This document shows positions 42,825 through 53,298 of a stretch of DNA of 64,000 bases, piece by piece. A program made the translations under genes and the position numbers. The stretch spans positions 1-64,000 of the forward strand of contig JAQUIT010000017.1 of NCBI GenBank assembly GCA_028681335.1. Direction: 5' to 3'. The notes beneath the pieces are model-generated. The model was not told the origin of the DNA and searched no databases. It saw only the letters and a program-made list of their open reading frames with translations. Position 1 is the stretch's first letter; the number at the start of each line of letters is the position of its first letter. The DNA comes from Desulfuromonadaceae bacterium. GTDB lineage: Bacteria; Desulfobacterota; Desulfuromonadia; Geobacterales; Pseudopelobacteraceae.

Positions 42825-45521
42825 TCAGTTTAATATTCTAGGTGTAATAAATATAAGTAGTTCGGATTTTATTTTTCTTGTTGAAGTAGATTTAAACAGA
42901 TTACCCAAGAAAGGGATATCCATTAAATAGGGAACACCTTCTTCTGACTGTGTTTCGTCTTCTTTATAAATGCCACCAATTACAGTAGTTTCTCCATCTT
43001 TTAATAACATCTCCGTAGTTGCCTCTTTCGTATTTATTGAAGGAGGATTTCCAGTACCGGCAGAGTTGTTCGTTGCTTTAATTTCCATGCCTATTGTGCC
43101 ATTTGAATTTATATGCGGTTTAACCTCAAGAGACAACACTGCTTGAACAAACTCCGTAGTGTTACCAGTTGTTGCAGTATTATTTACATAGGGTATTGAT
43201 TGACCCTGAGTTATTTTTGCTGTTTTATTATTTAGTGTCGCTATTTTAGGCGTTGAAACAATTTTCACCAGACCAGCTGTCGCTGCAGCATTAAGACGCA
43301 TATCAAGCTGAATATTGCTGGCAATCCGACCGAATGAAATCCCCATATTTGTTCCCGAGACACCACTTTGACCGGAGGTAACAGCAGGTGTAGTCAAGCC
43401 ACCAAAGCTGTTATCCAAGGAGTTAATACCAAGAAAAGAGGCAGAACCATCACGATAATGAACCCCCCAACTGACTCCCAGATCCCTTGTGAAAGTCGAT
43501 GAGGCTTCAACTATCCTTGCTTCAATCATAACCTGTCGTTCGGGAACATCCATTATTACAAGATAACTCTTGATTTTGTCCAAGTCAGATCGAACAGAAG
43601 TAATTATAATAGTATTAGTACGTACATCAGAACTTATTTTACCAATTCCCTGAGTCAATAATGCCTCTAGTTGTGACTTAATGGTATCAACTTTGTTGTA
43701 ATTAACTGGAAAATACTCTGTAAATGTAGGCTCATTTTTGAGCTGAGCTTTTCTATATTCGTTTTGTTCTTCCTCTATCGACTTTAACTTTCCCTTTTTC
43801 TTGATCGTCAAAACATTACCAGTTTCTCTTGAATCAAGTTCCTTGGTATCAAGAATAATATCTAGAGCTTGGTCCCAAGGGACGTTAACAAGTTTAAGGC
43901 TTATATTACCGGTAACATCATCTCCAAGAACAAAGTTTTTTCCGCTGACCTCAGCAAGCAACTGGAATATTTTTCGAACGTCTGCATCTGCAAATTCCAG
44001 CGTTACTTTCCGTCCCTTATAGACATGTGAACCACCCTGTTGAGTTGAGGTAATCTCGGCAGCGGAAATATCTGATGAAATATCTTCAACAGATGCATCT
44101 GCAGGTTTAGGATTGAATGTTTTGTTTTTTTGTCCCGCAGCTTCAATAACAAGCTTGTCAGCTGCGAGTCCTTCTGGATGCTTAAAGTCGATATAGAGCA
44201 TGTCCGCTTCCTGTCGGAATTCAAATGGAACGGGCATACGGGTAACTATACGTATTTTAGTATCAGTACTTTTTTTATTTTTGACAGAGAACGGGGTAAT
44301 TCTCAGGATTGGAGAAACAAAGGAACTAGTTTCAAGTGAACGCTGAAGATTTTTAGGTAACGTAGAGTTTTTAATAGTTAATGTAACATATCCAGGTGTT
44401 TTAACAGGTTGGTCTACACTGATTGTACCGGCAACTTTAACGGACACTCTGGAAATACCATTTACCTGTTGAAAATCAATCATCTCAACCGATGCAATAC
44501 CGGATAAAATAGCTGCCTTATTCAAATCTTTGGTTGGCTGGTTATCTGCTACAATTGTTTTAACCGGTTCCAATTTAGCGTCAGTATTTGGTTCTATCAC
44601 TGGCATAGGTTTAGCAACAGGTGTATCAGACTTGGTCAATGTCAGTTTTGTATTTGTATTTTCATCAACAGGATGAGAATCAAGCGTTATCTCAATTCCT
44701 GAGACTGTTTTGGTTGAAGCTGCTTCAGGAAAAGTCCCATTTACAGAATCCAGAACCACTCGAACTTTATCGGGATAGAGACCAATTCGTGCAGAAGCAA
44801 CACCAGATGCGTTTAACGGTAATAATCGAGAAGAAAGACCACTCTTCACATTCATTAAGTCAACAACATAACGTTCTGGCTTATTGAGCCTGAATGTATT
44901 AAAAGCAGAGATTGGACCATCAAGGGCAAGAGTTATTACATTCTTATTAACAGAAATTGCGCTAAGTGTTGTTGGCTGTATTTCTTTTTCTGACTCAGCA
45001 ACAGGATTCACAGTAACCGGCAGCGGCTCAACAACAGTTTTAGCTTCACTCACTAAAGGAGAAGGTGTGGTGTCTACCAGGGACGGGAATGAAATTCTTA
45101 GTTCACTTGAACTTGGTGAAACAACAGTAATGACAGGTTCGCTGTCACGCACAAGTTCAATTTCAAGCCTAGTAAGAACACCTGCATCAGTATCAAAGCG
45201 ACTAGCTGTAATAGACTTGAAATTACCTTTATTAATTATTAATGGTGCAGAAATATTTCCCTGTGTCACCTGTGATAGATCAATGACAAGTCGAAGCGGA
45301 GATGTTGTCTTGTAACTCGTATATGTAGCAGAAGAACTCAGTTTAATTGCCACTTCAGTAGCAAAACCATCACCTAACGGCACAACAGATTCAATCCTGG
45401 CAAGCTTTTTAGCTTCAAGTTGCACGGAAGAAACAGCTACACCCGGTGATACAAAAAGACAGGCTGCCATTACTGAATATGTTAACAGCGAAATTCTCAA
45501 TGAATTTTTCTTCCACTTCAT
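42825..45521 (-). CDS. pilQ: Type IV pilus secretin PilQ
   Basis: Outer-membrane secretin through which the pilus exits. 898 residues: signal peptide (about 1-32), AMIN-like peptidoglycan-binding regions in the N-terminal half (KVAGTISVDQPVKTPGYVTLTI), the STN/N0 domain (VTLEFADADVRKIFQLLAEVSGKNFV), an N1 domain and the C-terminal secretin with ATLNNKTAKITQGQSIPYV, ETTVIGGIYK and VPYLMDIPFLGNLFKS. Start is ATG 45521 with AAGGAG upstream; the longer frame begins inside pilP. The N-terminal half is Ser/Thr/Val rich and visibly A+T-biased. Last structural gene of pilM-N-O-P-Q. Confidence 0.95.
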   Translation of the reverse strand: MKWKKNSLRISLLTYSVMAACLFVSPGVAVSSVQLEAKKLARIESVVPLGDGFATEVAIKLSSSATYTSYKTTSPLRLVIDLSQVTQGNISAPLIINKGNFKSITASRFDTDAGVLTRLEIELVRDSEPVITVVSPSSSELRISFPSLVDTTPSPLVSEAKTVVEPLPVTVNPVAESEKEIQPTTLSAISVNKNVITLALDGPISAFNTFRLNKPERYVVDLMNVKSGLSSRLLPLNASGVASARIGLYPDKVRVVLDSVNGTFPEAASTKTVSGIEITLDSHPVDENTNTKLTLTKSDTPVAKPMPVIEPNTDAKLEPVKTIVADNQPTKDLNKAAILSGIASVEMIDFQQVNGISRVSVKVAGTISVDQPVKTPGYVTLTIKNSTLPKNLQRSLETSSFVSPILRITPFSVKNKKSTDTKIRIVTRMPVPFEFRQEADMLYIDFKHPEGLAADKLVIEAAGQKNKTFNPKPADASVEDISSDISAAEITSTQQGGSHVYKGRKVTLEFADADVRKIFQLLAEVSGKNFVLGDDVTGNISLKLVNVPWDQALDIILDTKELDSRETGNVLTIKKKGKLKSIEEEQNEYRKAQLKNEPTFTEYFPVNYNKVDTIKSQLEALLTQGIGKISSDVRTNTIIITSVRSDLDKIKSYLVIMDVPERQVMIEARIVEASSTFTRDLGVSWGVHYRDGSASFLGINSLDNSFGGLTTPAVTSGQSGVSGTNMGISFGRIASNIQLDMRLNAAATAGLVKIVSTPKIATLNNKTAKITQGQSIPYVNNTATTGNTTEFVQAVLSLEVKPHINSNGTIGMEIKATNNSAGTGNPPSINTKEATTEMLLKDGETTVIGGIYKEDETQSEEGVPYLMDIPFLGNLFKSTSTRKIKSELLIFITPRILN

Positions 45522-45531
45522 GCGAAACTCC

Positions 45532-46182
45532 TTATTGTTTCCTGGGAAGGGTAAGTTTAATATTTTCTTTACGGATTCTGCCGCTGTCATCTCTAAATTG
45601 TTCTAAAATGTCAACGCCATTTGAGGTTATAGATACAACCTTACCGTCATTTTTACCTATTAGCATCCCAACTTTTAATACATATCCTTTCCCGCCAGGA
45701 TCTGTAACCATTGCACGATTTTCACGACCACCTGTAATTACTCCGATGAGCTTGAACTGACCTACGTCAAAACTATGTATCGGTAAAGAATTGCGTTTCG
45801 CCTTTTTTATGGCGTCAGCTGTATTCAGAGGTTCTGATTTAACTGCAACAAAAGGTTTGAATGGATCTTTTTTATTACTGAAATCAAATTGGTTTGATGC
45901 CGCTGGCGGGACCCGTAAGACTGAACTAACCGCACGTTGCACGGCAACTGTCCGCTGCGGGATAGCAACCATGGGTGGCTTCACAGGAGTAGCAGCAGGT
46001 GCTTGGTCCTGATTCTTTTTGCAGGCGGAAATCATCAGTGCACACACAAATACGATTGAAACTGTTCGTATATTGGAAGAAATATTCTGCGTTTTTAGGG
46101 CGGAACACAACTCTACAAGCGCACTTGACCCGTTTTGTGTGGTCGATTTAAGACTATTTTTTAGCAGAAGTTTTTTTATCAT
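45532..46182 (-). CDS. pilP: Type IV pilus inner-membrane lipoprotein PilP
   Basis: Couples the PilMNO platform to the PilQ secretin. The C-terminal PilP core is clear: FDFSNKKDPFKPFVAVKSE, KLIGVITGGRENRAMVTDPGGKGYVLKVGMLIG. A hydrophobic stretch ending in a lipobox-like LMISAC gives the lipidated cysteine. The N-terminus is uncertain: the open frame extends to a TTG at 46203, and ATG 46182 would place about 40 residues before the signal segment, overlapping the end of pilO by 29 bases. A start nearer the lipobox would look more normal, but I found no good codon plus ribosome site there. Confidence 0.85.
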   Translation of the reverse strand: MIKKLLLKNSLKSTTQNGSSALVELCSALKTQNISSNIRTVSIVFVCALMISACKKNQDQAPAATPVKPPMVAIPQRTVAVQRAVSSVLRVPPAASNQFDFSNKKDPFKPFVAVKSEPLNTADAIKKAKRNSLPIHSFDVGQFKLIGVITGGRENRAMVTDPGGKGYVLKVGMLIGKNDGKVVSITSNGVDILEQFRDDSGRIRKENIKLTLPRKQ

Positions 46183-46762
46183 CCTCAATCTCTTTCTTAT
46201 CAAGGAAGCGGAATGTGGTAGCTAGACACGTCACCTTGGTCATCATGCGATTATTTACACTCTTGATATCAGAAAACGTGACATTAGTAATATTTACTAT
46301 TCTCGGCAAGTTTGCGACCGCAGCAAAAAAGTTTGCAACACTGAAATAAGATCCGGATACAACAATATCTACAGGAACATCAGCATAGAAATCTTTAGTT
46401 ACTTCCGGTTTTGGACGAAACGTCAAAAAGTCAAGCCCGGCACTTTTCCCTAATGATGTAATGCTGGTCAAAAGAGATGGTATTTCTTTTGAATTTGGCA
46501 ACTCAGCCAGAGCAAGTAGTAGTTCCTGATTAAGCTGCTCATATTCAAGCTTTAGCTTTGGCAGATTATTAGCTGTTCTTGTTTTATCATTAATCTCGTT
46601 CTCTAACTTGGAGATTTCAACTTTGAGCCCGTTAAGTTCATTATACTTTGGAATGTATAAAAACCATACTAAAGCGGCAGCTTCAACTATTGAAACCAGA
46701 ACAAGAATAAGTATTTTCTGTTTTGTCGGAAGCTTAAGTATTTTCTCTACGCTAGGATCCAT
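46154..46762 (-). CDS. pilO: Type IV pilus inner-membrane protein PilO
   Basis: A bitopic protein of 202 residues: short cytoplasmic N-terminus, one transmembrane helix (about 18-38, ILILVLVSIVEAAALVWFLYI), a coiled coil (about 45-85, VEISKLENEINDKTRT) and a periplasmic ferredoxin-like domain with TSITSLGKSAGLDFLTFRPKPE and PVDIVVSGSYFSVANFFAAVANL, typical of PilO. It pairs with PilN to form the alignment complex. It lies 24 bases after pilN. Confidence 0.92.
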   Translation of the reverse strand: MDPSVEKILKLPTKQKILILVLVSIVEAAALVWFLYIPKYNELNGLKVEISKLENEINDKTRTANNLPKLKLEYEQLNQELLLALAELPNSKEIPSLLTSITSLGKSAGLDFLTFRPKPEVTKDFYADVPVDIVVSGSYFSVANFFAAVANLPRIVNITNVTFSDIKSVNNRMMTKVTCLATTFRFLDKKEIEDDKKTSAKK

Positions 46763-46786: not shown

Positions 46787-47365
46787 TTATTTTTTTACCG
46801 CTGGTATAGCTGGAGTATTTGCAATTTCTGACTCCAGTTTCATTGTCAAATCAAATTTTTTAAGTTTCGTCCCGGCAACATCCGTTTGTTCAGATACTAA
46901 CAATTCAACATTCATAAAGTCGCTGGAAGCCTCAAGAGCTTTCATGAAATAAGCAATTAAATCCTCTGTCAATGCTATACCTGATATTTTCACATTCGAA
47001 CCTGATTCACTATAATTTGTTAACCACAGCTTATCTGGAGTAAGTTCACTTAAACTTAACAATCGTTGTGCCGGGCCGGTCTTGTTTTTCCTCAATTGTG
47101 AAAGTACGCCAAGTTTTTTCTTAACCTGTTCTTTTAAAGCTTTTAGTTCTTCTATTTTTCCAATCTTCTTTTTAAGCTCGTTTATTTTGTTGTTAGCAGA
47201 AACAATATCTTCTCTAGCCGTTGTTATTTGAACACGTTTAACCATGTAAAGGGAAACTACGACAATTGCAATTGCAATAACAACAATACTGAATATTACA
47301 ATTTGCTGAATTGCAGTTTCTTTTTTCTTGGCAGCCCTAATGGGTAAAAGATTTATTTTTATCAT
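46787..47365 (-). CDS. pilN: Type IV pilus inner-membrane protein PilN
   Basis: Begins MIKINLLPIRAAKKKE, the conserved INLLP motif that docks into PilM. One transmembrane helix (about 22-42, QQIVIFSIVVIAIAIVVVSLY), a coiled coil (about 50-95) and a small periplasmic domain (RLLSLSELTPDKLWLTNYSE). 192 residues, partner of PilO. Its ATG overlaps the pilM stop by four bases. Confidence 0.95.
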   Translation of the reverse strand: MIKINLLPIRAAKKKETAIQQIVIFSIVVIAIAIVVVSLYMVKRVQITTAREDIVSANNKINELKKKIGKIEELKALKEQVKKKLGVLSQLRKNKTGPAQRLLSLSELTPDKLWLTNYSESGSNVKISGIALTEDLIAYFMKALEASSDFMNVELLVSEQTDVAGTKLKKFDLTMKLESEIANTPAIPAVKK

Positions 47366-48417
47366 TTATCCCCTACCCTCCTAATAGCAAGCCCGACCGG
47401 CACCGCCATAAACGGGCCAATCTCCTGAAGGTATTCAGGATCAAAATCTTTTTCATTATAGCTTAGTTTTGCAAATGGATTAAGCTTCTCAACCGGCAAA
47501 CTCAATTTATCAGCAATAGTATTAATAAGGTTATAGACTTTAGAACATCCACCACTCACAAAAACAGAAGAGATACGTTCATCATTTGCAGTAGAATTAT
47601 AGAAATCCAACGAACGTCGAATCTCTTGAGAAATAGTTTCATTAACTTTTACAATCACATTCAAAAGAGGTTCATCAGCAGCCTCAGTAACAAGAAGTTT
47701 TGCAGTTTCGGCATCGTCACTGCTAAGACCTATCTGTTTCTGAATTTCCTCTGAGTAAAGGTTGCCACCCATCTGAACATCTCGAGTAAAAAGTGTAATG
47801 CCATCTTTAATGACATTTATATTCATCACGCTGGCACCAATGTTTACTAAAGCAATTATGTCATCAGAGCCATACTCATGGTTAGCTTCAAAAGCATTCT
47901 GAACAGCAAATGAATCCACATCAACAACAGATAGCTGCAATCCGGCTTCACTAAACACCGCAACGTAATCATTGATAATATCTTTTTTGCTTGCAACTAA
48001 AAGTACATTCATTTTAGACGGATCATTGATATCAGGAGAAAGTATCTGAAAATCCATATTAACATCATTGATGTCAAACGGAATATACTGTTCAGCCTCC
48101 CACGATATTTGATCTTCCAACTCTTCCTGAGGCATTGCCGGAAGTACTATTTTTCTGATAATTACTGAGTTACCCGAGATTGAGCAGACAACATCTTTTA
48201 TCTTTATACCAAGGCTTGCAACGAGATTTTTTATCTGTGCTGCTATTGATGAGCTATCCATCAGCGTATTGTCAACAATCGCCTCAGGTGGCAATGGGAA
48301 CACCCCCACATTAAGCAACTGCAAGGATCCCTTGTTCTCTTTCAATTGAACCAGCTTCACGGAGCTTGATCCAATGTCTATGCCTATGACCTCTTTTTTC
48401 TTTTTAAAAAGAAACAT
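47362..48417 (-). CDS. pilM: Type IV pilus actin-like ATPase PilM
   Basis: Cytoplasmic actin-like protein of 351 residues that binds PilN's N-terminus. The phosphate-1 motif is IGIDIGSSSVKLVQL, the phosphate-2 region IALVNIGASVMNINVI, and the adenosine site SSVFVSGGCSKVYNL. First pil structural gene after the XRE regulator, from which it is separated by 11 bases. Confidence 0.95.
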   Translation of the reverse strand: MFLFKKKKEVIGIDIGSSSVKLVQLKENKGSLQLLNVGVFPLPPEAIVDNTLMDSSSIAAQIKNLVASLGIKIKDVVCSISGNSVIIRKIVLPAMPQEELEDQISWEAEQYIPFDINDVNMDFQILSPDINDPSKMNVLLVASKKDIINDYVAVFSEAGLQLSVVDVDSFAVQNAFEANHEYGSDDIIALVNIGASVMNINVIKDGITLFTRDVQMGGNLYSEEIQKQIGLSSDDAETAKLLVTEAADEPLLNVIVKVNETISQEIRRSLDFYNSTANDERISSVFVSGGCSKVYNLINTIADKLSLPVEKLNPFAKLSYNEKDFDPEYLQEIGPFMAVPVGLAIRRVGDK

Positions 48418-48428
48418 ATCCAGTCCCG

Positions 48429-48635
48429 TTATTCCTGATCCTGAAATACTTTGTTTTTATCTTCAAGGCTATACCCTAATGCAAGAATAATTTTTCGCTT
48501 CGTTTCCATACGGCAATTCTCGCCACGTTCTATTCGATCTATAGTCAGTGTCGAAATCCCTGCTTTTCTGGCAAGCTCAGACTTGCTCATTAATCTTGAT
48601 TCACGAATTGATTTAACTTTATTTATCCCAATCAT
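48429..48635 (-). CDS. XRE-family (Cro/CI-type) helix-turn-helix regulator heading the pilMNOPQ operon
   Basis: A 68-residue protein that is almost entirely a Cro/CI-type DNA-binding domain: KVKSIRESRLMSKSELARKAGISTLTIDRIERG gives the five-helix fold with its recognition helix, followed by ETKRKIILALGYSLED. No ligand domain. I chose ATG 48635 with GGGA upstream; an in-frame TTG at 48656 is weaker. It sits 11 bases before pilM and directly behind the riboswitch, so it is co-regulated with the pilus genes and may be an autoregulator or a regulator of pilin genes. Confidence 0.85.
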   Translation of the reverse strand: MIGINKVKSIRESRLMSKSELARKAGISTLTIDRIERGENCRMETKRKIILALGYSLEDKNKVFQDQE

Positions 48636-48774
48636 GCTTGTATCCCATGAAAACAATTATTTCATGAGTATCATTTACAGCAAATAATACTATTGTCAAC
48701 TATTTTATATGTAATTATATACATAATTAGAAAAAAATAACTCCCAGTTTAACATACTATGTATTCTCAAATTT

Positions 48775-48902
48775 AAAAAAGCCGGGTTCCTTATATCTTT
48801 TCAGGATATTTCGGCAACCCGGCTGTCTCCATGAGACCCATTAGGCTTTCCGCCCCATTCTCGCGAATGGTTGAGTATTATCGTATATCAGATCAGCATA
48901 TG
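48775..48902 (-). ncRNA. GEMM-I cyclic-dinucleotide riboswitch with terminator (probable cGAMP-type, ON switch)
   Basis: Minus-strand RNA. P2 is CCAUUC-GCGA-GAAUGG with a GNRA tetraloop, followed by GGCGGAAAGCC (the AAAGCC core with intercalating A47), a P3 stem near GGGUCUC/GGAGAC and the signature AGCCGGGUUGCCGA. P1 pairs GAUAU (48885-48889) with AUAUC (48805-48809). Aligned to the V. cholerae Vc2 aptamer (from memory), position 18 is A, position 20 is A (48876) and the 21-46 pair is C-G (48875/48850) in place of G-C, a compensated change. A20 is the hallmark of cGAMP-preferring GEMM-Ib RNAs known from Geobacter. AUAUC can instead pair with GAUAU at 48793-48797 within the terminator GCCGGGUU...AACCCGGC-UUUUUU, so ligand-stabilised P1 should prevent termination. 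Confidence 0.82.
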
Positions 48903-48917
48903 TTTTAATCTGAATGG

Positions 48918-48947
48918 CTTATACTTCAAGCCCCTCACTAAAGTCAA
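48918..48947 (-). promoter_or_regulatory. Sigma-70-like promoter of the riboswitch-XRE-pilMNOPQ transcript
   Basis: Minus-strand TTGACT (48942-48947), 18-base spacer, TATAAG (48918-48923). The predicted start near 48910 places the aptamer at the very 5' end of the RNA, as expected for a riboswitch leader. Confidence 0.6.
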
Positions 48948-49108: not shown

Positions 49109-49654
49109 TTATGGCACACCATCTGCGCTACTTACCCTATTTCCGCTTACCCGCCCCGTATTTGCCAAGTCAATCCGATATTTTTGAGAATTCAAATCTG
49201 CTACGGCATCTATTTGTTTATCAAAAATAGTGATACGGGCTGAAACACCTCCTACTGGAGTAAAATCTATTGTCCCATTAGGGTTACATACTATTTCGGT
49301 ATTAGTACCTGCAAGACCGATTCTATCTGAAGGCATCGAAACGTCAGTGCCTGCCGGCAATGCAGAAGCCGATGGTGGCCAGTTTGACAATGTCGCCCTA
49401 TCCCCGGGCCTGAGACGATAGACACTATTAGCAACATCTAACTCAACTCTTTGTTGCCTGTTTGTAGAAATAGCACGAGATCTGGCAGTACGTATAAATG
49501 AAGCTAATTCCTTTCCAGCTTGGCGAAATTGCATGTTATCTCGCCACGTCATAAAAGTCGGAGCAGCTATTCCTATTACAATAGCCATAATCGCGATGGC
49601 AATTATCATCTCTATCAGAGAAAACCCTTTATTTTTAGTTGGTCCAACAATCAT
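49109..49654 (-). CDS. fimT: Prepilin-type protein, FimT/GspH family
   Basis: A minor pilin of about 181 residues. The type III prepilin signal is NKGFSLIEMIIAIAIMAIV, cleaved by PilD between Gly and Phe, with Glu at +5; the downstream GspH domain follows (RQAGKELASFIRTARSRAIST). ATG 49654 has AGGGG eight bases upstream; a GTG three codons earlier is possible. Last gene of the minor-pilin operon, 48 bases after pilY1 (49702). Probably part of the tip initiation complex. Confidence 0.88.
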   Translation of the reverse strand: MIVGPTKNKGFSLIEMIIAIAIMAIVIGIAAPTFMTWRDNMQFRQAGKELASFIRTARSRAISTNRQQRVELDVANSVYRLRPGDRATLSNWPPSASALPAGTDVSMPSDRIGLAGTNTEIVCNPNGTIDFTPVGGVSARITIFDKQIDAVADLNSQKYRIDLANTGRVSGNRVSSADGVP

Positions 49655-49701
49655 ACAAATCACCCCTACATAGATAACTTATTCATATCACACACCATTA
49701 A

Positions 49702-52700
49702 CTATTTTTGACGCCAGTACAATATTTTTGCCGATTGACCTTTATCAGTCTGAATAGGTACAATATTACCACCTGAACTCAAGAATACACTTGTAACACC
49801 GGTTGAGGATGTAGCCACAACAACACCTGACGAAATACCTTGTCCAATTAACCCCTTACGGTCGCTCCGAACGAGGACCGTCTCACTACTTTTTGCTTGT
49901 CGCGTATTTGTTGTGGTACGCGTTGCTGCGGTCGCAGCATCATTGGTTTTATCCAGATTTAATGCTGCTTCACCTGTCTGATAATTAAGAATATAGACAT
50001 AACTATCGCCAGGATTGGCAATCTGACAAGGATCGGAGTTTGTCGGCACATAAGTTGTGAAATACGCAATTTTATTGATTACCCTTGGTGATGCCAGAGC
50101 TTTCTCACCATCATTTTCATCCAACTTAATATACCAACCACTACTGGTTTTAATTTGATTTAAAATATAGTCTACTGAGCCTACCGTTGGATTATTTGGA
50201 TTGACACTGCTATTTACGATCTGTGTAGTTTGAAGTTGATTGGTGGTAACGTCCAACAGGCAATTACTCAGATCAGTCGCAGTTGTTGCACATTCAGTTT
50301 TGCCGCCAGTGGTATCCTTGTCTTTTACCTTTACCATGTACAGTCTATCCAAAACATTTTTGTTAAGTGGATGTTCACGATCGCCGGTACCGTAAAACAC
50401 CATATCACAGGTTACCATCGCGCTAGTGGCTGAGTCGTAGCAGTAATCCAATAACACTGAAGGTTTATAAAATGTTTTCCTACCAACATCAGCAGTGCCG
50501 ACTGAACCAGGGTTAGGTGTAAACACTTTCATGCCAGTCCATGTAGATGTGTCATAGGCAGTAGTTGGCGGTGAAGAGGCACCGATATTAAACCGCCACA
50601 GATTTCCGGCACTGTCAACTGCATAGAGTCGATCAATATAACCCCTGCCTTTTGTATCGACGGTTGCAATTTCACCGGCAATTGAATAGAGCATGCCAGA
50701 ATTGGTGTTGGAACTAGTAGTAGCATTATAGGTGTAACTCCAGAGCAACGAGCCGGCATTGGTAAAATCTATTGTTGTACCAAGATTTGCAATTTCAACT
50801 ACATACACTCCACGCCCCTTTGGACTGGCCGCCGCGCTGCTACCAATGCTTGTAACAAATCCTGCCCCCGTGTCCGAGAGAGTGACGCCTCCGGTGCCGA
50901 GATACAACTGGTTTGCACCATAACGACTATCCTCATTCAAATTGTCGTACCCCCCGGCAAATATTGCGGCGATTTTATAGGTATTTGATCCGGTTCTTAT
51001 TCTTTCAAGTTTAGGTTCACTCCACGTTTCACCAAGCTCGGTAAAACCGGTTGTTGCATTTGAAATACGTTTCACGTATTTAGGGTTTTCCGGGTCAGTG
51101 GCGTCTACCAGGTAATAATACCCCTTTGCCGGGACAGCGTTAGTACCACCACCTCGACGTTGCCCTACAAGCAAAAGCACCTTGTCAGGTATATCAGAAG
51201 GGTCATCTTCAGCAGAAATTTTTGGTTTGTCGTACACATATGCTGATACCGTAGAATCAGTGAAGCTTGTATGGGTTACACCGTGTACATACTGCAGATT
51301 TGGCAAAAGATCCGGTGGAATGAAGGCCCAGGCTTCACTGCCGTCACAATCCCTTACAGCATGCAGCATGCCGTCATTAGCCCCAACGTAAACCATCGTC
51401 TTGTTAATTGAACAATCTTTCTCATTGTCTACATCAAACGTATATTTTGCGTAGTTTACAACGCCTGGTTTGGAATGCAGGACATCTCCCATAGTCCAAT
51501 CGCGATTATCGGTCTTACTGCCATTACCGTTATCATCATACGAATCTATCCCTCTAATATAGTTAACGAGATCATCCTTTGCTGCTGTGTCAGCCACCCC
51601 CAGCAAGATAGGTGTTATGGTACTATTGGTTGTAACAAATGCATTGGATGTATCCAGAATCGTTGTATTAGTAAAGTACGTATATATTTTACGAGTAGCG
51701 GGTGATCTTGTCTGCAACAGTTCACCAGATCCGCCTGAATCGACATCTCCTTTATCGATTGTAGGACTCCAGAAAGATATGGAGGAATCACGGAAAGAAC
51801 CATTCACTTTACCGTTTGGCAGAGAATCCGTGGTAGGGTTCCTATCGTCCCAGCCATCATTATTAAGGTCAACATAGTTAGCAGCGACACCGTTTTTATC
51901 AACAAGATAATTATTTTTATCAAGCCCGTATTTTTTAAGATTACCCTCCCAGGCTGATGTACCAGTTGGCTTAAAAAGACCAATATACATTCGACTGGCG
52001 CTTGAGGTTTTGTTTTCAGGGCTTACCGGCACAACCGGCGCCACGAACGACGAGTTAGTCTCAAGAATATTAGAGATTACCTTCGTAAGCGCCTCCGCCA
52101 ATCCGGTCTGATCTTCAGCCAGAAAGGCCTGTCCATGGCCATGACTGCTGTCTGCTGTTCGATTCAGCAGTGCGACGGCGCTGGCATTTGAACTACCAAG
52201 CCCAAAACCAATGGTAAATGTACTGACACGCTGCGTACCAGCAGTATTCGGCTTGGTGTCGTCATCTGTAAGCACATCCACATCATAGAGATACTTGGCC
52301 ACATCATCCAGGTAGTGCGTGCCATTAGAAGTATAACTTCCCGGATCCGCACCATCACCATCATAATCACCGATTTCAGTACCTAATATGGCATTTTCAT
52401 CTTCTGTGGACATGCCATCTGTTACTAGTATGATATAGTTTTTTTGGCAACTCGCAGTTATTGGAGAGGTATAGTTATTATCGGCATCGTATCCAGTAGT
52501 TCCAAATTTCTTTGCCCCCCCTTGAAAATATCTCAATGCCTCAAACACCGTCTCGGCTAGAGGTGTCCATGTGCTGGCACTAAAATCATCGACCACACTG
52601 ATTAAAGCAGTTCGGTTTGTCTTTGTATCGATAAAAATGTCATCCATATTTTTTATAGATGATGTGTAATAGTAAGTTTTACCATCAGCGCCTGTGAAAC

Positions 52701-53298
52701 TCTTTTTTATAAGTGTGCCCCCCTCACTACTATTAAACTTCATTAAGCCAAAATTAACACCAGTCGTAGTCAACAACAGATTCTTAACAACACCTTTGGC
52801 GATATCAATTTTTGAACCAAGTTTCGTCATTGGTTGTTTCAGCCAATTCACATAATTACCCAGCACATATGAACCCGTGTCAGGAGAATTACATGCACCA
52901 GTATTTTTTTTGAGTTTGGTCCCTGAATACAGACCAGACGTTTTTAATAGGTTTTGCGGATTGACACCGCCACACGAGGTTGTGACAGAGGAGACATCAT
53001 TAACATATTTAGAGTAATCCGATGCCTTGTAGACTGTATCTGCAGCACAGTCACTACCATCACATTTTTTCAATTTTGGGTAGGTGACGCTGGGATTATA
53101 AGGCTCTGCAGCCTCATAAACAGGATCTGACATACTACCTGAGTTATCAAGAATTATCAGGATATTAGGATGTATTGTCGTGGTTATGCCTCCGTATATT
53201 GATGTATCACCACGATAATAATCAGGTGCAGCATATACGCTACAGGGGCCCAAAACAACAAACAGCAACAGCGTATTAATAAGTTTGCGGATTAACAT
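49702..53298 (-). CDS. pilY1: PilY1-type pilus tip protein with von Willebrand A domain and C-terminal propeller
   Basis: A 1198-residue exported protein. Signal peptide 1-23 (VYAAPDYYRGD follows). A von Willebrand A domain holds the MIDAS motif DNSGSMSD (Asp51) and a long loop; acidic DxDxD calcium-like motifs occur in GDYDGDGADPGS and VDLNNDGWDDRNPT. From about residue 620 the C-terminal half resembles the PilC/PilY1 beta-propeller: TMVYVGANDGMLHAVRD, LLLVGQRRGGGTNAV, YLVDATDPENPKYVKRI, IDRLYAVDSAGNLWRF. PilY1 sits at the pilus tip and affects surface sensing, adhesion and retraction. CCAAGGAGGCGTC precedes the ATG. Between the small unknown secreted gene and fimT. Confidence 0.93.
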   Translation of the reverse strand: MLIRKLINTLLLFVVLGPCSVYAAPDYYRGDTSIYGGITTTIHPNILIILDNSGSMSDPVYEAAEPYNPSVTYPKLKKCDGSDCAADTVYKASDYSKYVNDVSSVTTSCGGVNPQNLLKTSGLYSGTKLKKNTGACNSPDTGSYVLGNYVNWLKQPMTKLGSKIDIAKGVVKNLLLTTTGVNFGLMKFNSSEGGTLIKKSFTGADGKTYYYTSSIKNMDDIFIDTKTNRTALISVVDDFSASTWTPLAETVFEALRYFQGGAKKFGTTGYDADNNYTSPITASCQKNYIILVTDGMSTEDENAILGTEIGDYDGDGADPGSYTSNGTHYLDDVAKYLYDVDVLTDDDTKPNTAGTQRVSTFTIGFGLGSSNASAVALLNRTADSSHGHGQAFLAEDQTGLAEALTKVISNILETNSSFVAPVVPVSPENKTSSASRMYIGLFKPTGTSAWEGNLKKYGLDKNNYLVDKNGVAANYVDLNNDGWDDRNPTTDSLPNGKVNGSFRDSSISFWSPTIDKGDVDSGGSGELLQTRSPATRKIYTYFTNTTILDTSNAFVTTNSTITPILLGVADTAAKDDLVNYIRGIDSYDDNGNGSKTDNRDWTMGDVLHSKPGVVNYAKYTFDVDNEKDCSINKTMVYVGANDGMLHAVRDCDGSEAWAFIPPDLLPNLQYVHGVTHTSFTDSTVSAYVYDKPKISAEDDPSDIPDKVLLLVGQRRGGGTNAVPAKGYYYLVDATDPENPKYVKRISNATTGFTELGETWSEPKLERIRTGSNTYKIAAIFAGGYDNLNEDSRYGANQLYLGTGGVTLSDTGAGFVTSIGSSAAASPKGRGVYVVEIANLGTTIDFTNAGSLLWSYTYNATTSSNTNSGMLYSIAGEIATVDTKGRGYIDRLYAVDSAGNLWRFNIGASSPPTTAYDTSTWTGMKVFTPNPGSVGTADVGRKTFYKPSVLLDYCYDSATSAMVTCDMVFYGTGDREHPLNKNVLDRLYMVKVKDKDTTGGKTECATTATDLSNCLLDVTTNQLQTTQIVNSSVNPNNPTVGSVDYILNQIKTSSGWYIKLDENDGEKALASPRVINKIAYFTTYVPTNSDPCQIANPGDSYVYILNYQTGEAALNLDKTNDAATAATRTTTNTRQAKSSETVLVRSDRKGLIGQGISSGVVVATSSTGVTSVFLSSGGNIVPIQTDKGQSAKILYWRQK

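Follow-up and report, generated by a model that had tools for sequence, protein, structure and literature searches.

A putative cGAMP-type GEMM-I riboswitch and a conserved second promoter-like block before xre-pilMNOPQ in a Desulfuromonadaceae bacterium

Results

Gene order and aptamer

The window, the whole stretch of 64,000 nucleotides from a Desulfuromonadaceae bacterium that was analysed here, carries on its minus strand a riboswitch leader that is followed in line by xre (48429..48635), encoding a 68-aa Cro/C1-type helix-turn-helix protein (PF01381, 34.5 bits, cutoff 23), pilM (47362..48417; PF11104, 277.4 bits, and PDB PilM chains), pilN (46787..47365; PF05137), pilO (46154..46762; PF04350), pilP with an unsettled start codon (45532..46203; PF04351) and pilQ (42825..45590), a secretin with AMIN domains (PF00263, PF11741). 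This is the gene order of a pilM riboswitch, and the Pfam matches confirmed the arrangement that an earlier note had read from the DNA alone, an XRE regulator and then pilus genes. Upstream on the same strand (49109-53298) lie two genes, one minor-pilin-like (GspH, N_methyl) and the other coding for a protein of 1198 aa that has a DNSGSM motif; this second protein gave no Pfam match and may be PilY1-like. Read-through from these two genes would likewise reach the riboswitch terminator.

The GEMM-I aptamer (48805..48889, minus strand; P1 helix, P2 and P3) was matched by the RF01051 covariance model at 48886-48810 with 45.2 bits (gathering score 35; E 1.3e-05 in the window), which bore out the family named in the earlier note. 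Direct reading showed the P1 helix strands GAUAU (48889-48885) and AUAUC (48809-48805), the P2 stem CCAUUC-GCGA-GAAUGG, U48874 opposite G48851, and a further GAUAU (48797-48793) before the U-run of the terminator. At the position of Vc2 G20, numbered A14 in the crystal structure of the cGAMP riboswitch, direct reading and the RF01051 alignment gave A48876 (minus strand), and the Vc2 21-46 position is occupied by the pair C48875-G48850 on the same strand. The base positions noted before for the P2 stem, A48876, C48875/G48850 and the GAUAU, AUAUC and GAUAU segments were all correct.

For comparison, 19 A20 elements were aligned, 10 of pilM type (window copy counted) and 9 others of the same genome. 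Twenty cells were changed on both sides of a pair, and the upper P2 stem accounts for 19. Shuffling gave a mean of 6.5 over the whole structure, and none of 500 shuffles reached the observed number, although these shuffles ignore the kinship among the elements. The lower P2 pairs showed no variation and hence no covariation across the 19 elements, and the P1 helix was paired in only 76.8% of cells. The C-G pair at 21-46 was found in 19/19 elements, which makes it a mark of the subclass: the swap from G-C is present as had been claimed, but not as a compensation private to this copy.

Ligand class

RF01051 matched the genome 14 times, 13 of them above the cutoff. Read by eye, ten of these elements have A20, all with C21-G46, and the four others combine G20 with G21-C46. 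In Vc2, G20 serves c-di-GMP recognition; the G that marks the c-di-GMP-sensing subclass at this position is replaced in the window by A48876. The contact bases of the cGAMP-bound structure, as given in the part of a molecular dynamics study available to us (PMC6274999), are G8, A9, A11, A12, A14, C15, G40, A41, A42 and C75. With G48889 counted as 1, the window leader has 10/10 of them, where C76, the first C past the G of junction J1/3, stands for C75. All ten are kept in 17/19 A20 elements, and the two others (L067 and L014) each deviate at one. A20 together with the full set of contact bases corresponds to GEMM-Ib, and judged by sequence the window aptamer is most probably a riboswitch of this type, with 3',3'-cGAMP as the predicted ligand of this copy. 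The earlier proposal that A20 indicates a cGAMP-type GEMM-I element thus agrees with the sequence and with published work on the corresponding riboswitch.

Terminator and predicted switching

An intrinsic terminator with U-run (48775..48824, minus strand) was identified by folding, and its 5' arm is the aptamer 3' strand, so that aptamer and terminator are mutually exclusive. The minimum-energy fold of 48889-48773 was the terminator form (-39.1 kcal/mol, z -4.1), and none of 200 shuffles folded as well. Keeping the aptamer pairs cost 3.2-3.4 kcal/mol at lengths 85-101, 4.5 at 102 and 8.2 at 106, and 18.6 kcal/mol with the terminator complete. When the 19 leaders were folded singly and six bases of the aptamer 3' strand were checked in each, this strand was paired with the downstream arm in the minimum-energy folds of 10/10 pilM-type leaders and of 7/9 other A20 elements of the genome (5 or 6 of 6 bases); no such capture was seen for L013 and L014. 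On the alignment, where the terminator arm is out of register, 63.0% of terminator cells were paired against 63.7% after shuffling.

The folds point to an ON-type switch with a terminator competing with the aptamer: as the aptamer 3' strand is captured by the terminator, ligand binding should antiterminate. Antitermination had been proposed before and fits both these folds and the pilM riboswitch of G. metallireducens, described as an ON switch that binds cGAMP (Landgraf et al., 2022, PMC9262584), for which the excerpt seen also reports loss of ligand binding at length 102 and sequestration of C75 by the terminator. The predicted change of partner of AUAUC agrees with the folds and is incomplete, since the window's terminator also takes the aptamer 3' strand including the C that matches the ligand-pairing C75.

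Among the other elements of the genome, L005 and L009 form a tandem A20 GEMM-I pair (G000:C6:351852-352057), each with a terminator-form fold; the gene that follows them is L,D-transpeptidase-like and encodes YkuD and SPOR domains. L013, an A20 element lacking 3'-strand capture, may act differently; the gene behind it codes for a protein that has cytochrome c domains. Behind a G20 element, of c-di-GMP type, lies a gene for a response regulator with HD domain (L002 1501-2741), and a feedback loop is possible there.

Promoter-like sites

A putative leader promoter, P1 (48918..48947, minus strand; TTGACT, 18 bases, TATAAG), was read directly, and the -35/-10 pair proposed at this place is plausible by sequence. 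With a loose pattern, a P1-like pair of hexamers was found before the riboswitch in 4/9 riboswitch-bearing relatives (L045, L051, L053, L089); the remaining five showed none. P1 was missed by a consensus promoter scan whose rule requires T as the last -10 base. The scan gave 2 promoter-like sites against a shuffled mean of 2.8, so consensus matches alone carry little weight here. A sigma-54 promoter was also considered; the nearest matches to the consensus with at most one mismatch lie kilobases off (44601 and 53989), and 11 matches against 6.6 expected are unremarkable.

Between terminator and xre lies a second promoter-like block, P2 (48672..48699, minus strand; TTGACA, 16 bases, TAAATG), a putative riboswitch-independent promoter at a conserved place before pilM. 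Its -35 TTGACA (48699-48694) is located 64 bases before xre. The -10 TAAATG is weak (3/6 consensus), and in the consensus scan this -35 was listed with a different -10, AATGAT, at a spacing of 18 bases. Directly upstream of the -35, the conservation profile revealed an AT-rich block (48700..48728, minus strand), and an UP element or an XRE operator would be our guess for it; ATAATTA occurs no more than 30 bases from the -35 in 31/46 loci.

TTGAC[AT] was found 270-295 bases before pilM in 46/47 loci (window counted), which are mutually related and hence not independent cases, and in 36 of the 46 no riboswitch exceeds the Rfam cutoff. Six loci are omitted from this count, L050 with 49 bases upstream and the distant L091-L094 and L096; in L091 there is an xre match, but its TTGACA lies 374 bases before pilM, beyond the counted range, and no xre match was found for L092-L094 and L096. 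Only L058 deviates, its block lying 145 bases ahead of pilM. In this locus the xre frame after P2 (2681-3003) is shortened to its start and last part with most of the helix-turn-helix gone, and pilM is intact. In steps of ten, the information per column was 0.78-1.30 bits between 20 bases upstream of the -35 start and 29 bases downstream of it, 0.30 and 0.45 bits in the next two steps upstream and 0.05-0.11 beyond. As the profile is anchored on TTGAC[AT], the conservation of these six columns is built in, and only the flanks and the fixed place are informative; AT-richness is uncorrected.

In a second set of same-genus and same-order loci, several of which are the same stretches as in the first set and so not independent, P2 was present in 27/27 assessable loci. 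Of its 29 rows 28 gave a match; excluded were L101 (49 bases upstream, no match) and L106 (match in the pilM coding sequence, start misplaced). Same-order loci outside the window's family had the P2 -35 in 8/8 cases, from 8 of 14 genomes. By sequence, P2 most likely gives xre-pilMNOPQ transcription beyond riboswitch control.

Distribution and loss of the riboswitch

A riboswitch above the Rfam cutoff was found before pilM in 9/52 related loci. A model built from the 19 elements recovered the same nine, the window and a remnant in L047, plus one match in L047 with E 0.55. Among same-genus loci this model gave a riboswitch in 3/21 and a remnant in 1/21, two of the 21 having insufficient or misplaced upstream DNA, and among same-order loci a riboswitch occurred in 5/8, all five from one family (f3, 5/5 genomes). 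Some RF01051 match was present in 39/39 genomes searched (own counted), so that absence of the pilM copy does not equal loss of the class.

In L047, whose PilM is 87% identical, the remnant (2477-2589) has lost the 5' half of the aptamer; terminator, P2 and genes are kept, and no P1-like site was seen before the remnant in the stretch examined. The presence of P2 in the 36 loci without a riboswitch above cutoff and its retention in L047 suggest that the riboswitch probably adds to an independent transcription. In a tree of 49 PilM proteins, with only 16/46 inner branches well supported, the riboswitch-bearing loci were scattered; 38 rows fell in no group, for which reason gain and loss counts were not derived. 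As to the direction of riboswitch evolution, loss is visible in one remnant (L047) only.

A GacA-like gene as candidate cGAMP source

The search for a hybrid-type GGDEF synthase, proposed as a check in the earlier note, led to a GacA-like gene that carries the Hypr serine. Among 35 GGDEF domain matches in the genome, one lies in a gene (L039 1471-2835, 454 aa) that shows the Hypr-type motifs NDLHGHMVGS and GGDEY, that is Ser/Thr at the 348 position with GGDE[F/Y]. The best PDB match of its product was 6d9m, in which a diguanylate cyclase is fused to endolysin, and the serine of the one aligned with that of the other; we take 6d9m to be the GGDEF-domain fusion of Gmet_1914 described in the consulted part of PMC6456294, where Ser348 of Gmet_1914 is the Hypr signature. 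The signature occurred in 1/25 loci with the motif caught, out of 30 scanned. The motif scan was blank for L032, L040, L041, L043 and L044; a second pattern gave GRATGD with GGDEF for L032 and left the other four blank, and five weaker GGDEF matches are without a locus, so a further Hypr enzyme in this genome is possible. Matches to the L039 protein at 1e-100 or better were found in 34/39 genomes (own counted), and the serine was seen in the protein of the own genome.

Discussion

We consider it very likely that the element is a GEMM-Ib riboswitch equivalent to the one published for pilM in Geobacter, with P2 giving a floor above which cGAMP raises output. RNA polymerase starting from P1, near 48911 by hexamer spacing, would transcribe the aptamer; without ligand the aptamer 3' strand would be drawn into the terminator and the RNA would stop near 48775, and cGAMP would keep the aptamer closed until the polymerase has passed, so that xre-pilMNOPQ would be transcribed. 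P2, lying past the terminator and with a start predicted by the same spacing near 48665, would feed transcription unstoppable by the riboswitch, and cGAMP would lift output above this floor. Aptamer, terminator form, gene order and conservation of the P2 block come from sequence and folding, cGAMP binding and ON action are taken from published work on related species, and the ligand of this copy and the activity of P1 and P2 are what we infer. Of the earlier wording that the riboswitch switches the operon on, the cGAMP-dependent increase is supported; a start from zero seems too strong, and "raise" fits better given the conserved P2 block.

By score the aptamer falls in the c-di-GMP-I family, and it might answer c-di-GMP, or cGAMP and c-di-GMP alike, as the omcST riboswitch does according to earlier work cited in PMC6456294. 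We regard this as quite improbable in view of A20 with C21-G46, the complete set of cGAMP contact bases and the pgcA member of the subclass, which favours cGAMP about 1200 fold in the same excerpt. That the riboswitch is a decayed or non-functional remnant can be considered extremely improbable: one such remnant is known in L047, and the riboswitch is below cutoff in 43/52 related loci, some of them distant or short of upstream DNA, yet aptamer, terminator and contact bases of the window are intact.

The riboswitch could also be the sole entry, with all xre-pilMNOPQ transcription from P1 and the P2 block being, for example, a promoterless XRE operator. The strong terminator form, the poor -10 of P2 with a consensus scan at chance level, and the ON signal of about 6% without ligand that a model predicts for the G. 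metallireducens pilM riboswitch (PMC9262584, as excerpted) would all suit such an arrangement. We nevertheless find it unlikely, because the 36 loci without a riboswitch above cutoff keep the TTGACA block at a fixed distance, where it would be the obvious start, and because L047 has kept P2 and genes without the aptamer 5' half or a visible P1-like site.

A floor from P2 with cGAMP acting on top of it, the reading we prefer, could explain in a testable way why gacA affects the pil operon modestly. According to the accessible part of PMC6456294, gacA deletion in G. sulfurreducens reduced a transcriptional regulator, along with genes of pilMNOP, 2-3 fold, pgcA 10 fold and omcAHG 16 fold, and on electrodes the mutant showed a lag of about 1 day, ascribed by the authors to OmcZ, after which rate and extent of growth were unaffected; growth on electrodes is impaired by insertions in pilM, pilO, pilP and pilQ (PMC5585712, likewise seen in part). 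A riboswitch-independent promoter would fit both the 2-3 fold effect and the intact growth rate, where the effect is from G. sulfurreducens and P2 is known here from the window and related loci. As omcST, with a riboswitch reported to respond to cGAMP as well as c-di-GMP, was also changed 2-3 fold (PMC6456294), the modest effect has other possible causes. P2 further warns against taking a leader riboswitch for the only control over the genes downstream.

More speculatively, and rather doubtfully, the operon might consist of two layers, an old P2 that XRE controls via the AT-rich block, and on top of it a cGAMP arm that can be lost. Since the cGAMP-dependent transcript also encodes XRE, cGAMP would shift the XRE dose and thereby reset P2, a feed-forward loop by which pilus assembly would be tuned and not switched. 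If so, the patchy presence of the riboswitch would reflect repeated loss of one layer.

The kind of riboswitch, its target operon and its ON mechanism are already known, and the conserved P2 block is a useful addition. Ligand class and gene target had been read correctly from raw sequence and were already explained in print; the link from cGAMP to pilus assembly drawn in the earlier note is likewise published (PMC9262584, PMC6456294, as far as the excerpts go). No report of a riboswitch-independent promoter at this place was noticed in the literature, judged mostly from titles and openings of abstracts, and the part of PMC9262584 consulted mentions none for G. metallireducens.

Compared with known systems, the window aptamer shares fold and covariance model with the Vc2-type c-di-GMP-I riboswitch (RF01051) and differs from it by A for G at 20 and C-G for G-C at 21-46, with cGAMP as the predicted ligand. 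Geobacter GEMM-Ib, attributed to Kellenberger and to Nelson in 2015, is reportedly the A20 subclass before cytochrome, pilus-assembly and polysaccharide genes. We saw no difference between these riboswitches, as known from the consulted part of a citing paper (PMC6456294), and the window element. The closest correspondence is with the pilM riboswitch of G. metallireducens, where ON action is published: judged from the published description, as excerpted, both agree in class, pilM operon, mutual exclusion of aptamer and terminator, the lower P2 U-G pair and a sequestered ligand-pairing C.
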